This document shows positions 45,954-56,381 of a stretch of 64,000 nt of DNA, one piece after another; positions within the stretch are counted from its first letter, which is position 1, and every line of letters starts with the position of its first letter. The stretch is from NCBI GenBank assembly GCA_905181785.1, contig CAJIZC010000014.1, forward strand, positions 1-64,000, given 5' to 3'. Below the pieces are notes generated by a model. That model was not told where the DNA came from and searched no databases. It was given only the letters and a program-made list of their open reading frames with translations. The translations under genes were made by a program, and so were the position numbers. This DNA is from an uncultured Candidatus Poseidoniales archaeon (GTDB lineage Archaea > Thermoplasmatota > Poseidoniia > Poseidoniales > Poseidoniaceae).

Positions 45954-46748
45954 ATGCTACAATTGCAAGGAAAGACCGCCTTCGTGTTTGGTGTGGCGAG
46001 CGAGGATTCCATCGCTTGGGCGATTTGTCAACAGTTGGCGGCCGCTGGTGTGACGCTTTACCTCGGGTATCAGAAGCGATTCATGAGCCGAATTTTCCAA
46101 CTCAAAGACAAATTACCACAAATTGGCGGATTCTACCCGCTTGATGTGGCAGAGGACGCAACAACAAAGGAATTTTTCGACGCCTTTGCAGCAGAACATC
46201 CAGGGCTCAAGGCTGATATTCTCATTCATGCGATCGGCTTTGCGCCTCGAAGTTGCTTTGATCGCCCCATTCTCTTCGTCGAAGATGCTGATATCAACAC
46301 GGCCATGACCATTTCAGCAAATTCGCTGCAACGTTGCTTGAAGCATGCGCTGCCTTACCTCAACCCTGGTTCGTCCACCATCACGCTAACCTACGCCGCT
46401 TCGACCCGATATGTTCCTAATTATGGCATCATGTCGATGGCTAAGGCTGCATTGGAATGCTGGACGAGGGAACTTGCGTGCCACCTCGGTCCGGAAGGTC
46501 ATCGCGTCAACGCCATCTCTTCCGGCCCCATACGCACCATTGCCGCAGGTGGCATTCCGGGTTTTGACAAAATCCTTGACCACGTCGAAGCCAATGCACC
46601 ATTGCGCCGTAACGTCAATCAAAACGATGTAGCGGGAGCAACGCTTTGGCTTGCAAGCCCTCTCGCAAGCGGCGTTACAGGCCAGTGCATATACGTCGAT
46701 GGCGGTTATTCGATCACCATGGTGCCTCAGAGCATCATGGATCAGTGA
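45954..46748 (+). CDS. fabI: Enoyl-[acyl carrier protein] reductase, FabI type
   Basis: This 264-aa short-chain dehydrogenase matches bacterial FabI along its full length. GVASEDSIAWAI is the NADH-binding start (the GxxxxxSxA pattern of FabI), and LIHAIGFAPRS and the SGPIRTIAAGGIPGF loop are FabI hallmarks. The catalytic residues are Tyr147, Tyr157 and Lys164 in LTYAAS and PNYGIMSMAKAALE, nearly the same positions as in E. coli. It reduces enoyl-ACP in fatty-acid elongation. A strong SD precedes it, and it ends 9 bp before the megasynthase, which lacks an enoyl reductase domain of its own. FabI is unusual for an archaeon. Confidence 0.93.
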   Translation: MLQLQGKTAFVFGVASEDSIAWAICQQLAAAGVTLYLGYQKRFMSRIFQLKDKLPQIGGFYPLDVAEDATTKEFFDAFAAEHPGLKADILIHAIGFAPRSCFDRPILFVEDADINTAMTISANSLQRCLKHALPYLNPGSSTITLTYAASTRYVPNYGIMSMAKAALECWTRELACHLGPEGHRVNAISSGPIRTIAAGGIPGFDKILDHVEANAPLRRNVNQNDVAGATLWLASPLASGVTGQCIYVDGGYSITMVPQSIMDQ

Positions 46749-46757
46749 AGTGAGCGC

Positions 46758-49700
46758 ATGACGATCACAACAGCAAATGGCAAACCCTGCGAAGGGCTTG
46801 ATCAAGGACCGTTCGAACCGATTGCAGTCATCGGTTTGGCAGCCCTGATGCCTGACGCGCCAAGCATCGAAGCCTTCTGGCAGAACATCATCGATTCCAA
46901 AGTCAGTATTCGAGAGATACAGGAAGGCCGATGGCCGGGTCCAATCAACCATTTCTATCGAGAAGGTGGGCCTGGCGACAGCAAAGAAGGGTTCACCTAC
47001 GCCAAAATCGGAGCTCTTGTCGAAGGGTTCGAATTCGACTGGCGTCGATGGAGGCAGCCACCAGGCACCCTCCCGCAAATTGATCCATGCCAACTTTGGG
47101 CGGTTTCTGTAGCAGCAGATGCCATCGAGCAAGCCGGCTATGATGGCGAAACAAAAGACATCGATCGCACTCGATGTGGCGTTGTTTTCGCAAATGCGCT
47201 CGGCGGTGAGAACCGCAACCTTTCCAACATTCGCGTGTGGTCCAACCACACCAAAGAGCTGGCTAAGAAGCATGGGCTTGCAGAACAGAACATCGAAGCG
47301 TTCACCGAAGAGTTGGTTGAGGGTACGCCACGAATCGATGAAGACACAATGCCTGGGGAATTGGCCAATGTGGTTTCAGGCCGAGTCGCAAACCTACTCG
47401 ATTTACAAGGCCCCAACCACGCAATGGACGCCGCCTGTGCGTCTTCCATGGCGGCTGTTTTGGATGCTTGCCGATTGCTGCAAACCCGTCAGGTGGACCT
47501 CATGCTCGCAGGGGCTACAGACCGTACGATGGACCCGGCCACATTTTCGAAGTTCAGTGCCATTGGCGCTTTATCACCGACTCATTCAACCCCATTTGAT
47601 GCCCGAGCAAACGGCTTTGTGATGGGTGAGGGGGCTGGTGTGTTGCTGTTGAAACGCCTGAGCGATGCTTTGGCAGATGGCGATGAGGTTCACGCAGTCA
47701 TCCGTGGCATAGGTGGTTCCTCCGATGGGCGCGGCAAGGGCATCACTGCACCAAGCCAGCGGGGCCAAGTTCAGGCCATCGCCCGAGCGTACAATCAAGC
47801 GGGGTATCCTGCAAGCACAGTGGAACTCGTGGAAGCCCACGGCACCTCGACAAAGGTGGGAGATGCGACCGAATTGTCGACGTTATCTTTGCTTTGGGAC
47901 GGGTTCCCAAGTGGAGACCATGTTGCTGTCGGCTCGATAAAATCTCAGATTGGCCATCTCAAAGCCGCTGCTGGTATTGCAGGAATCATGAAGACCGTTA
48001 TGGCGCTTCACCACCGCACCATTCCCCCATCCGCAGGGTTTGAAACGCCAAACCCGACCGTTGAATGGAGTGAGATTCCCTTCTTTGTTCCAACCGAAGC
48101 CCGCGATTGGCCTCGACCTGAACACCACCCGCGACGGGCAGGCATTTCCGCCTTTGGCTTCGGCGGTACGAACTTCCACATCGCTCTTGAGGGCTATGAG
48201 CCAGAATATCACGCTCCGTTGGCGCGCGAATGGGATCTTCGATGGCAAGCCTATGCTGCGATTGAAACCTCTTCTTCAACAACCCCTTCCGCCCCGTCTA
48301 TTCTCGATGGTTCTGCGGCACCAAGCATGACTCACGAACAACTCAAAGCGGTTGAAGGTGGCATGCTTCTGCTCTCTGCCGAATCCCTCGAAGGCCTAAG
48401 GCAGGCCCTCACGACAACTTCCTTCGAAGGAGCCACCTTCGATGAAGACCCGAAAGGAATCCGTCTGTCTTATGCTCTCTATGCTGCATCAAGTTCCTTT
48501 GATTCAAGCGCTTCAATGCGGATGGCCGTTATTGCCACCAATTGGGCCGAGTTCAACAAGCGAGTTGAATTGGCTCTCAAGGCCATGGACGATGAAGACA
48601 AGTGGGGCTTCCTACAAGCCCAAGGCGTTTTGATCACCAAAGACGCTCCGCTTCATGCTAAAGCCAAGGTTGCGCACATGTACCCTGGACAAGGCAGTCA
48701 ATACGTCGGTATGACCCATGATCTGCATCAACGCTACACTGCGGTTCAGCAGGTTTGGGCCAAGGCCGATGAGACCATGATCGAGGTGCTTGAAGGTGAA
48801 ACCCTGTCAAGTTTCGTACTTCGGTCAAACCTCTCGAAAGAAGAACAGGCAGAGGCTGAACACAAACTAAAGCAGACAGAATACACTCAGCCTGCCATGT
48901 TGACCGCTGACCTGGCCATCGAGCGAGCGCTCAACGATCACGGCATTCACCCCGATATGGTCGCTGGCCATTCGCTCGGCGAATACGCTGCCTTGATGGC
49001 TGCAGGGATTTTGGATATGGACGGAGCACTTCGTGCAGCAGCTGCTCGCGGAACTGAAATGGGCGCTGTAGAAATTGACGATAAAGGGCTCATGGCAAGC
49101 GTTAGTGCGCCATATTCAGAGGTTGAAACAATCATCAACGCTGTCGACGGTTACGTCATCGCAGCGAATAAAAATTCTCCAAAGATGACCGTCATCGCTG
49201 GTGAAACAGAACCGGTGAAGGCCGCAATGGCTGAGTTTGAAGCCAAAGGATTCCAATCGATGCCATTGGCCACCTCCCACGCTTTCCATTCGAGGATTGT
49301 CGCACCAGCCAACGAACCTCTTCGCAGGTTCTTAGAAGGGCTTGATATTCGTTGGCCCACCATCCCAATCACGGCCAATGTCGACGGGGAATTCTACCCA
49401 ATGAACCCTTCAGACAGCGAGGATTTGGAGGCTTCGAAATCCGCAGTTCTCAGCAAGTTAGCCTTGCAAATGGCTTCCTCAGTTGAATGGACCGCTCAAA
49501 TTCAAACCATGTATGAAGCCGGAGCACGAGCGTTCATCGAAGTCGGGCCCAAGCGCGCTCTGAGCATGTTTGCGGTTCAGATTCTTGAAGATCAGCCTCA
49601 CTTGCCAGTCATGACAAACCACCCCAAACAAGGTGGAATCGCATCCTTTTTGACCGCCCTCGCTACGATGGCGCTCGCAGGACGTCCGATGAATTGGCCG

Positions 49701-55613: not shown

Positions 55614-55625
55614 TGAGGCCTAAAA

Positions 55626-56381
55626 ATGACAATTGAACATCTCCAACCACCCGGGGATGATTTGCCAACCTGCTTGGTTTTACGCAGTCCAGTCCAAACG
55701 CATGAACCTGAACATGTGGTTTTGGCTGATGCTGATGAAGTGGCTACGTTTGTCGTTCAGAAGCGATGCGATGAGCACCTCACAGGCCGCTGGTTGTTGC
55801 AAGAAGCCCTCGCCCTGTGGGGCATTGATGCCACGCTGGTGAGCGTTGAACGTACGAAACATCGAGCTCCTTACCTCGCCTACATCGCAGGCGTTTGGAA
55901 GAACACGCCGCTGCCTTCGATCAGCCTCTGTCACAGCGGCGGGTGGGCTTATGTGGCCATTGCCGAGCCTGAATGGTGCGTTGGTTTGGACGGAGAGCCG
56001 AGCGACCGAGGCATCCAACCAAACGCCTTTTCCATGATGGCCAAAGGAGCAGAACTGGAGTTTTTACTCGCTCACCCTTCTTGCGCCATCGAAGCGTGGG
56101 TTTCCAAAGAAGCAATCCAAAAATCCCTTGGCCTAGGCATGCACCTGAACCCGAGGAAAATTGAAATTCCAATTGGAGTAGAACGGTCATACTTATCAAT
56201 TGAAAAATCAAAAATTCAATTGGTAAAGTGGGCTCACAAGGAGGCCAGTATGGCCATCGCCTTTACAGCGGGGATCCGCGCTGTTCCAACCCCGGAGGAT
56301 GCGCTGCTCGAAGCGACAAGGAAAGCAATGACTGAAAGCGAATGGGGCGTTGGTTGCAAGACCACCCGGGGCAATGCCTGA
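55626..56381 (+). CDS. Sfp-type 4'-phosphopantetheinyl transferase
   Basis: This 251-aa enzyme would add the CoA-derived arm to the carrier domains of the megasynthase encoded 12 bp upstream. SISLCHSGGWAYVAIA is the first Sfp motif. VGLDGEPSDRG supplies the magnesium ligands Asp122 and Glu124, and EAWVSKEAIQKSLGLG is the W-x-x-K-E-A helix. All key residues are present, although the target residue in the carrier domains is Thr. Length fits the pseudo-dimeric Sfp class rather than AcpS. The gene is convergent with the MerT-like gene, stops abutting. Confidence 0.88.
   Translation: MTIEHLQPPGDDLPTCLVLRSPVQTHEPEHVVLADADEVATFVVQKRCDEHLTGRWLLQEALALWGIDATLVSVERTKHRAPYLAYIAGVWKNTPLPSISLCHSGGWAYVAIAEPEWCVGLDGEPSDRGIQPNAFSMMAKGAELEFLLAHPSCAIEAWVSKEAIQKSLGLGMHLNPRKIEIPIGVERSYLSIEKSKIQLVKWAHKEASMAIAFTAGIRAVPTPEDALLEATRKAMTESEWGVGCKTTRGNA

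Follow-up and report, generated by a model that had tools for sequence, protein, structure and literature searches.

The closest described systems are the Type R secondary lipid synthases, which combine KS-MAT-CLF-ACPn-KR enzymes with a phosphopantetheinyl transferase (PPTase) and were reported from Koribacter, Solibacter, Elusimicrobium and Roseiflexus (Shulse & Allen 2011, PMC3098273). In that description, one PfaA-like protein has the order KS-MAT-(KS/CLF)-ACP(3-6)-KR, the PPTase gene lies downstream, and no enoyl reductase is listed. For archaea, a preprint by Schmerling et al., listed among the references of PMC11948995, deals by its title with an archaeal fatty acid synthase complex. The lipids of Poseidoniales have been called a "vexing unanswered question" (PMC7838436; also PMC6962369), and Villanueva 2017, as cited in PMC6962369, noted a putative fatty acid pathway together with PlsC in MGII. 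The window analyzed here, a 64,000-nucleotide stretch of contig CAJIZC010000014.1 from an uncultured Candidatus Poseidoniales archaeon, carries an operon that we propose to encode an iterative, ACP-dependent type I fatty acid synthase with an enoyl reductase acting in trans (probability roughly 0.7).

Organization of the operon and domains of its products

Analysis of open reading frames confirmed, base for base, the fabI-synthase-PPTase trio described in a sequence-only reading of the window, with gaps of 9 bp (fabI/synthase) and 12 bp (synthase/PPTase) and all genes on the plus strand, as claimed for a single operon (cf. Table 1). The ATG of fabI is preceded by a Shine-Dalgarno-like GAGGAGGT. 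Chance can be excluded as an explanation for the locus, since it is conserved in dozens of genomes and dN/dS is about 0.04, a value that points to purifying selection but is only approximate because dS is saturated.

Table 1. Coordinates in the window of the operon genes, the synthase domains and a possible precursor-supply gene
Feature	Position	Strand	Basis and remarks
Biotin carboxylase, possible malonyl-CoA supply (putative link)	30104..31495	+	PF02786/PF00289/PF02785; ~15 kb upstream
fabI, enoyl-ACP reductase, predicted to act in trans	45954..46748	+	264 aa; PF13561, 1ULU match
Synthase KS-AT-KS2-ACPx3-KR-DH, fatty acid / secondary-lipid type	46758..55613	+	2951 aa; domain matches, motifs, homologues
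KS1, residues 18-490	46809..48227	+	PF00109/PF02801; Cys227/His361/His400 present, invariance checked
AT, residues 634-985	48657..49712	+	PF00698, 124 bits; GHSLG and HAFH (malonyl-type); Ser, His invariant
KS2, residues 1156-1625, FabF-like	50223..51632	+	second PF00109 stretch; Cys1364/His1512/His1552; PDB FabF matches
ACP1, residues 1730-1800, LGIDTVK at 1760	51945..52157	+	PF00550, motif
ACP2, residues 1856-1923, LGIDTVK at 1882	52323..52526	+	PF00550 best stretch, motif
ACP3, ~residues 1973-2043, LGIDTVK at 2003	52674..52886	+	PF00550 (three stretches), motif
KR, residues 2310-2610	53685..54587	+	PF08659, 83 bits; Ser-Tyr-Asn-Lys intact, invariant in 63 sequences
DH, residues 2611-2951	54588..55610	+	PF21089; HAIEGVPYHPG, ExxxQ; H, E, Q invariant in 62 sequences
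Sfp-type 4'-phosphopantetheinyl transferase	55626..56381	+	251 aa; sub-threshold PF17837/PF01648, invariant motifs, Foldseek, synteny

Pfam and NCBIfam searches resolved the 2951-aa synthase (P0001) into the order KS-AT-KS-ACPx3-KR-DH (ketoacyl-synt twice, Acyl_transf_1, PP-binding three times, KR and PKS_DH_N), and motif counts gave three LGIDTVK and one GHSLG, with KS cysteines near residues 227 and 1364. The catalytic residues checked were invariant across 62 to 96 relatives per domain, and the AF2 model of the DH (pLDDT 77) matched solved PKS dehydratases at E ~1e-14. Pfam revealed no ER family in P0001, which sets it apart from the type I FAS of animals, fungi and the CMN group. The reductase encoded upstream (P0002) scored 236 bits with the enoyl-ACP reductase family PF13561 and 194 bits with Thermus FabI (1ULU), the Y-x6-K motif being kept in the alignment; it thus belongs, like bacterial FabI, to the SDR enoyl-ACP reductase family, with a score under the NCBIfam FabI equivalog cut-offs. 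The PPTase (P0003) reached 22 bits, under the Pfam cut-offs for PF17837/PF01648; its motifs G-x-D-x-E and W-x-x-K-E-A-x-x-K, characteristic of the Sfp type, were invariant in 12 sequences, and the best Foldseek matches of its low-confidence model (pLDDT 53) were PPTases. By domain content, the trio thus holds everything needed for a full elongation cycle, as had been stated from the sequence. Furthermore, in the searches on which our genome-wide statements about relatives are based, a FabI orthologue occurred in 36 of 39 synthase-positive genomes and in none of 21 synthase-negative ones, and the three positive genomes without it hold synthase fragments only.

Comparison with described synthases

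The synthase shares with the Type R description the order KS-MAT-KS/CLF-ACP(3-6)-KR in one protein and a downstream PPTase gene, recognized by its 12-bp gap, motifs and fold. Besides being archaeal, it differs from that description in that (i) a DH follows the KR, (ii) a dedicated FabI gene lies 9 bp upstream, so that the core is not a PfaA homologue and PPTase without enoyl reductase, and (iii) the second KS, in the slot termed CLF, is catalytically complete, a contrast that may lie in the label. With PfaA-D PUFA synthases it has in common a PfaA-type KS, AT, tandem ACPs and KR, whereas its second KS stands ahead of the ACPs. The domain order was correctly described at the outset as unlike PfaA-D or type I FAS, but it is not unprecedented, since it resembles Type R (PMC3098273). 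As judged from the sequences compared, three features are new: the branch is archaeal, its second KS is complete, and an enoyl reductase is linked to it, either FabI or a fused PfaD-type domain. The complex of the Schmerling preprint is reportedly ACP-independent and made of separate enzymes; what it shares with our operon is that archaea would make fatty acids de novo.

Proposed function and lipid context

In the cycle that we propose, the PPTase would arm the three tandem ACPs, the AT with its HAFH motif would load malonyl units, and KS1 and the catalytically complete KS2 would condense them, possibly splitting priming or chain-length ranges between them. The KR would reduce and the DH dehydrate, FabI would reduce the enoyl group in trans, and repetition of the cycle would most likely yield mainly saturated straight chains. 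Since no thioesterase domain was found in the synthase, chains would probably leave by way of a PlsC-type acyltransferase or a separate hydrolase. That the enzyme works iteratively, which substrate it uses, how far the chain is reduced, and what the product and its acceptor are, all these are predictions of this scheme, and so is the dedicated lipid product suggested by the sequence-only reading. The fatty acid synthase reading is supported by the elongation-cycle domains, the invariant residues, the strict link to FabI, the synteny of the trio, the enoyl reductases linked or fused to the synthase in several other archaea, the acetyl-CoA-carboxylase-type neighbors, PlsC and the absence of glycerol-1-phosphate (G1P) dehydrogenase matches above the cut-off. 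In bacteria as well as in Heimdallarchaeia and other Thermoplasmatota, carboxylase-type genes adjoin the synthase; their position in the other archaea underlies the putative link of the biotin carboxylase in Table 1. The presence of carboxyltransferase is uninformative because it is universal in the relatives.

All but one of 60 relatives (59) encode PlsC-type acyltransferases, which four archaeal controls all lack, and the G1P dehydrogenase family was found above the cut-off in none of the 60 relatives (13 of 14 controls were positive), which is why the acyl chains are probably destined for glycerolipids. Synthase-positive genomes tend to have more PlsC copies, a split that was noticed post hoc and on which we make no claim. 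In the second of the two related families, all 24 genomes encode PlsC, G1P dehydrogenase does not exceed the cut-off in any of them, and yet 16 (5 of 9 genera) lack the locus; therefore, the membranes of the group cannot depend on the synthase alone. Also counting against the fatty acid synthase reading is the report that water dominated by MGII contains no unusual intact polar lipid in abundance (Besseling 2020, PMC6962369).

Because many of the domains also occur in PUFA-type synthases, the products may be unsaturated or partly reduced, and the operon might instead make a specialized secondary lipid (polyunsaturated or partly reduced, a hydrocarbon precursor, or a surface lipid attached to glycolipid or protein), with FabI acting in some cycles only. 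The best NCBIfam model for the synthase is indeed that of PfaA (TIGR02813), with 877 bits against a cut-off of 1010.1, the patchy distribution looks accessory, and the appearance of the neighbors P0004 and P0008 (see below) would suit a surface product. However, PfaB, PfaC (KS-CLF-DH2, the dehydratase pair) and PfaD are missing among the locus neighbors, none of which is a lipid-modifying enzyme by Pfam, and the association with FabI is strict, so we regard a secondary lipid as unlikely, if still worth considering.

The label given to this slot in the Type R description (PMC3098273) implies a chain-length factor or another non-elongating partner; that KS2 is one, and not a second condensing enzyme, is also rather improbable. 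With 49 bits to PF00109 against 183 for KS1, KS2 stands much further from known KSs, which would suit such a role, but its Cys-His-His is invariant in 96 bacterial and archaeal sequences. A chain-length factor lacks the catalytic cysteine. The triad occurs in this protein and in every bacterial relative sampled, and the label published for the Type R proteins may be positional.

Distribution, relatives and origin of the locus

The trio occurs in the same order in both related families, with HSP70 among the shared neighbors in many independent assemblies, and most related genomes carry the locus. The host genome is archaeal, as the sequence-only reading stated, and neither refutation that this reading named, a chimera or a locus missing from other genomes of the group, is borne out. 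Homologues with the same domain order were found in Heimdallarchaeia and in a further six families of Thermoplasmatota, and the locus was absent from all five class-mates sampled. The conserved neighbor genes P0004 and P0008 encode secreted- or membrane-anchored-looking proteins.

In several other archaea, an enoyl reductase is linked or fused to the synthase. Five Heimdallarchaeia loci (L100, L103, L105, L112, L143) and one from Thermoplasmatota family f23 (L084) share the KS-AT-KS2-ACPn-KR-DH core but differ in that a PfaD-type (PF03060) enoyl reductase is fused N-terminally, a domain present in most of the Heimdallarchaeia found. The PPTase, a separate gene here, is fused C-terminally in L100 and in L082 (family f11). 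Weak similarity to NMO was seen in the N-terminal extensions of L078, L082, L094 and L096, whose profile comparison with the fused enoyl reductase was unconvincing; the extensions of L080 and L086 were rejected as domains, as they look like overlong ORF starts.

The sequence-only reading had suggested acquisition from bacteria, and gain by the order from a Type R-like clade of Chloroflexota, Actinomycetota and Acidobacteriota would agree with the abundance of homologues there, with the long branch of the order and with an AU test that did not reject a tree joining it to the bacterial clade (p = 0.117). The outgroup-rooted KS1-AT tree nevertheless nests the order within a clade of mainly archaeal sequences (SH-aLRT 89), which also contains six bacterial MAGs and has the sampled Acidobacteriota and Chloroflexota relatives as its sister. 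These six "Pseudomonadota" MAGs were considered as mislabelled archaea and rejected as such; none of them has the archaeal ribosomal protein L32e, so they look bacterial. L32e is likewise missing from G101/L119, whose domain of life is unsure, so family f15 is represented by G072. Synthase-linked archaeal FabIs, moreover, fall into a single clan (100/100) that excludes six bacterial FabIs, the operon FabI being 49-51% identical to the former and 40-43% to the bacterial FabIs sampled, and no linked FabI was present at the bacterial loci scanned. As the nearest relatives of both FabI and the synthase are other archaea, we consider bacterial acquisition doubtful; the trees appear to favor no direction of transfer, and a recent one from bacteria into the order is not established.

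A chimeric assembly or contaminating bacterial contig, which bacterial-type enzymes inside an archaeal MAG might suggest, can be dismissed, given the same locus and neighbors in many independent assemblies, its presence in a single-contig 2.06-Mb genome (G074), the fact that the window also encodes HSP70 and a thermosome-type chaperonin, and an operon GC of 0.541 against 0.523 for the rest. A viral origin was rejected, the scan of viral contigs with P0001 having returned zero matches.

Implications

The layout, previously described in bacteria only, has related machines across the phylum and in Asgard archaea. We suggest, tentatively and at somewhat less than even odds, that an archaeal ACP-dependent FAS lineage in Thermoplasmatota and Heimdallarchaeia, in which a separate FabI and a fused PfaD-type domain are interchangeable as enoyl reductases, feeds bacterial-type or mixed glycerophospholipids in dominant archaea of the surface ocean. 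The host belongs to a very abundant type of ocean archaeon; for the acyl chains in the puzzling membrane lipids of these Poseidoniales, the three-gene synthase is an expressible candidate source, and synthase-positive and synthase-negative genera offer a natural contrast. The Heimdallarchaeia synthases, in one case a single polypeptide from enoyl reductase to PPTase, bear on the route by which archaeal cells could have gained fatty acid synthesis before or during eukaryogenesis.

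Organization of the operon

Analysis of the window bore out, with exact coordinates, the three-gene operon with 9-12 bp gaps described in the sequence-only reading, namely fabI, a large synthase and an Sfp-type PPTase. The GC content of the operon is near that of the surrounding DNA, and Pfam families and motifs resolved the synthase into the series KS1, AT, KS2, three ACPs, KR and DH. The carboxyltransferase genes of this genome sit elsewhere, away from the operon. Upstream of fabI, the gene for a 182-residue protein with a match to the TBP (TFIID) domain (36 bits) is conserved, together with its neighbours, in both related families.

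Features of the operon and its surroundings in the window
Feature	Position (nt)	Strand	Remark
DisA-like diadenylate cyclase domain	13889-14737		PF02457
Biotin carboxylase	30104-31495		about 15 kb upstream of the operon
TBP-like protein	43131-43679		
Upstream neighbour	44705-45838		signal-like and membrane segments; stops 115 bp short of fabI
fabI	45954-46748	+	9-bp gap to synthase
Synthase	46758-55613	+	2951 codons; 12-bp gap to PPTase
PPTase	55626-56381	+	
Downstream gene	56382-56828		convergent with the operon

Three parts of the system were checked separately. Pfam covers only part of the DH domain, and its AlphaFold2 model (pLDDT 77) has a fold like that of polyketide-synthase dehydratases. 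The PPTase scores under the Pfam cut-offs, yet it has Sfp-type motifs, and Foldseek returned PPTases for its poor model (pLDDT 53). FabI aligns with Thermus FabI over its length and retains Y-x6-K.

The catalytic residues were invariant throughout: Cys and His of KS1 and KS2 and Ser and His of AT (91-96 sequences; the second His of KS1 is taken from a conserved motif in which the adjacent Gly was scored), Ser/Tyr/Asn/Lys of KR (63 sequences) and His/Glu/Gln of DH (62 sequences). Since the KS2 scan pattern stopped short of the Cys, its conservation was not imposed by the search. Judged from the invariant catalytic Cys and His, KS2 appears to be a complete condensing enzyme rather than a chain-length factor.

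Conservation in related genomes

The synthase locus is real and under selection. The concern that no other related genome might carry it proved unfounded, as the synthase was found in 39 of 60 genomes (that of the window and its nearest relatives), a weak 40th match in G049 being left out. Synteny, which had been proposed as a check, was present too: the order of the trio and its neighbours is kept across independent assemblies, and the trio occurs in a one-contig 2.06-Mb genome (G074). Within the genus, 31 of 36 genomes were positive, and the five negatives are 57-83% complete assemblies. The sister family had the synthase in 8 of 24 genomes (genera g2, g5, g7 and g9), and the 60-genome search did not find it in genera g3, g4, g6, g8 and g10. 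Against two congeners, dN/dS was about 0.04, with dS saturated. Furthermore, a true FabI orthologue accompanied the synthase in 36 of the 39 positive genomes and was missing from all 21 negatives. The three remaining positives hold synthase fragments only; fabI and the synthase thus behave as one functional unit. At L052:5226-14226 (G030:C15), several stops and frameshifts break the synthase frame, with fabI and the PPTase reading through; this copy is either a pseudogene or an assembly error.

Distribution and phylogeny

A phylum-wide search matched synthases of identical domain order in families f11, f15, f23, f26, f31 and f32, and gave none in the five f3 class-mates. A KS2 profile made from non-MGII archaea and scanned against 84,980 species genomes retrieved 198 relatives, a sample biased to query-like sequences. 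The best 80 of these came from Heimdallarchaeia, Chloroflexota, Actinomycetota, Acidobacteriota, Myxococcota, Binatota and six proteobacterial MAGs, and were mostly KS-AT-KS2-ACPn-KR-DH, save where contig ends or frame breaks cut them. Archaeal ribosomal protein L32e was seen in the tested archaeal hosts except incomplete G000 and G101 (L119), the latter being a putative member of the window's phylum whose contig bears the NCBI title 'Proteobacteria bacterium'; L32e was not found in any of the six proteobacterial MAGs. These are large (5.8-8.1 Mb; L099, L113, L114, L116, L129 and L134), their synthase variant mostly has an extra ACP between AT and KS2, and they nest in a mostly archaeal clade.

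With five PfaA/PKS-like plasmid sequences as the outgroup, the KS1-AT tree had one clade of bacterial Type R-like synthases (99) and a second (89) that comprised all archaea and the six proteobacterial MAGs, with Poseidoniales beside f26 and f11 (87, 88). The KS2 tree concurred (order monophyletic, 100; bacterial clan, 100), and the concatenated tree was weak between those groups. Synthase-linked archaeal FabIs grouped in a single clan (100/100), apart from the six bacterial FabIs in that tree, which came from Pseudomonadota or Listeria. The trees did not establish the acquisition from bacteria suggested by the sequence-only reading, nor was forcing the order with the bacterial clade rejected (AU test, p = 0.117). 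On the most economical reading of these trees, the fabI-synthase pair would predate the order and be common to archaea, and would have been exchanged with bacteria at least once.

Variable enoyl reduction and carboxylases

Enoyl reduction is the variable slot of these systems. FabI is a separate gene in Poseidoniales, and it also adjoins the synthase in f15 Thermoplasmatota (L079, L083) and one Heimdallarchaeia genome (L106). Five other Heimdallarchaeia synthases and those of f23 (L084, L085) carry an N-terminal PF03060-type (PfaD-like) reductase domain; a C-terminal PPTase is fused in L100 and L082. Heimdallarchaeia synthases roughly 3600 residues long that include a fused PfaD-type ER were seen at L100:3983-14755 and in L103, L105, L112 and L143. 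L100 itself is one 3590-residue chain (ER-KS-AT-KS2-ACP2-KR-DH-PPT), apparently a self-contained lipid synthase in Asgard archaea. A profile search found no linked FabI or PF03060-type reductase at any bacterial locus scanned; 12 of 79 neighbouring ORFs at 14 loci were acyl-CoA dehydrogenase-like, and such a gene lies directly upstream of the synthase at many bacterial loci (e.g., L144:3715-5349 and L165:4689-6470). These proteins may replace the enoyl reductase, which is only a guess, or act on the product.

In Heimdallarchaeia (CT and BC), f31 (BC), f15 and f23 (CT), f11 (fused) and several bacteria, the neighbours of the synthase include carboxylase genes. The f11 protein (L081:10833-17261), an acetyl-CoA carboxylase in a single chain of 2142 residues, contains ACC_central and BT domains, a combination associated with eukaryotic ACC.

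Comparison with known systems

The PfaA-D identity was rejected (TIGR02813, 877 vs 1010 bits; no PfaB/C/D), and so was that of a type I FAS. The claim that the synthase matches neither therefore stood, but its layout is not unprecedented, as it resembles Type R, a bacterial class with KS-MAT-CLF-ACP(3-6)-KR and a downstream PPTase from Acidobacteria, Elusimicrobia and Chloroflexi (Shulse & Allen, PMC3098273). The PPTase lies downstream in both; unlike Type R, the window cluster has an enoyl reductase of its own, and KS2 does not look like the "CLF" of that class. By analogy, the system would work like Type R, yet these two points keep us from counting it as a strict member. A search confined to open-access papers turned up no description of an archaeal synthase of this kind.

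Proposed function

With KR, DH and FabI together, the chains would be expected to be fully reduced and so saturated, and because no thioesterase was recognised, the acyl chain is likely handed over by direct acyl transfer. For MGII, Villanueva 2017 (as cited in PMC6962369) had already pointed to PlsC and to a putative fatty acid pathway. No G1P dehydrogenase scored above the cut-off in the 60 genomes, in agreement with Rinke et al. (PMC6461757). PlsC-family acyltransferases occurred in 59 of 60 genomes. Their presence in synthase-negative relatives as well counts against an essential membrane role for the synthase. Rinke et al. (PMC6461757) report fatty acid degradation genes in all genera, and the synthase-negative relatives may scavenge fatty acids.
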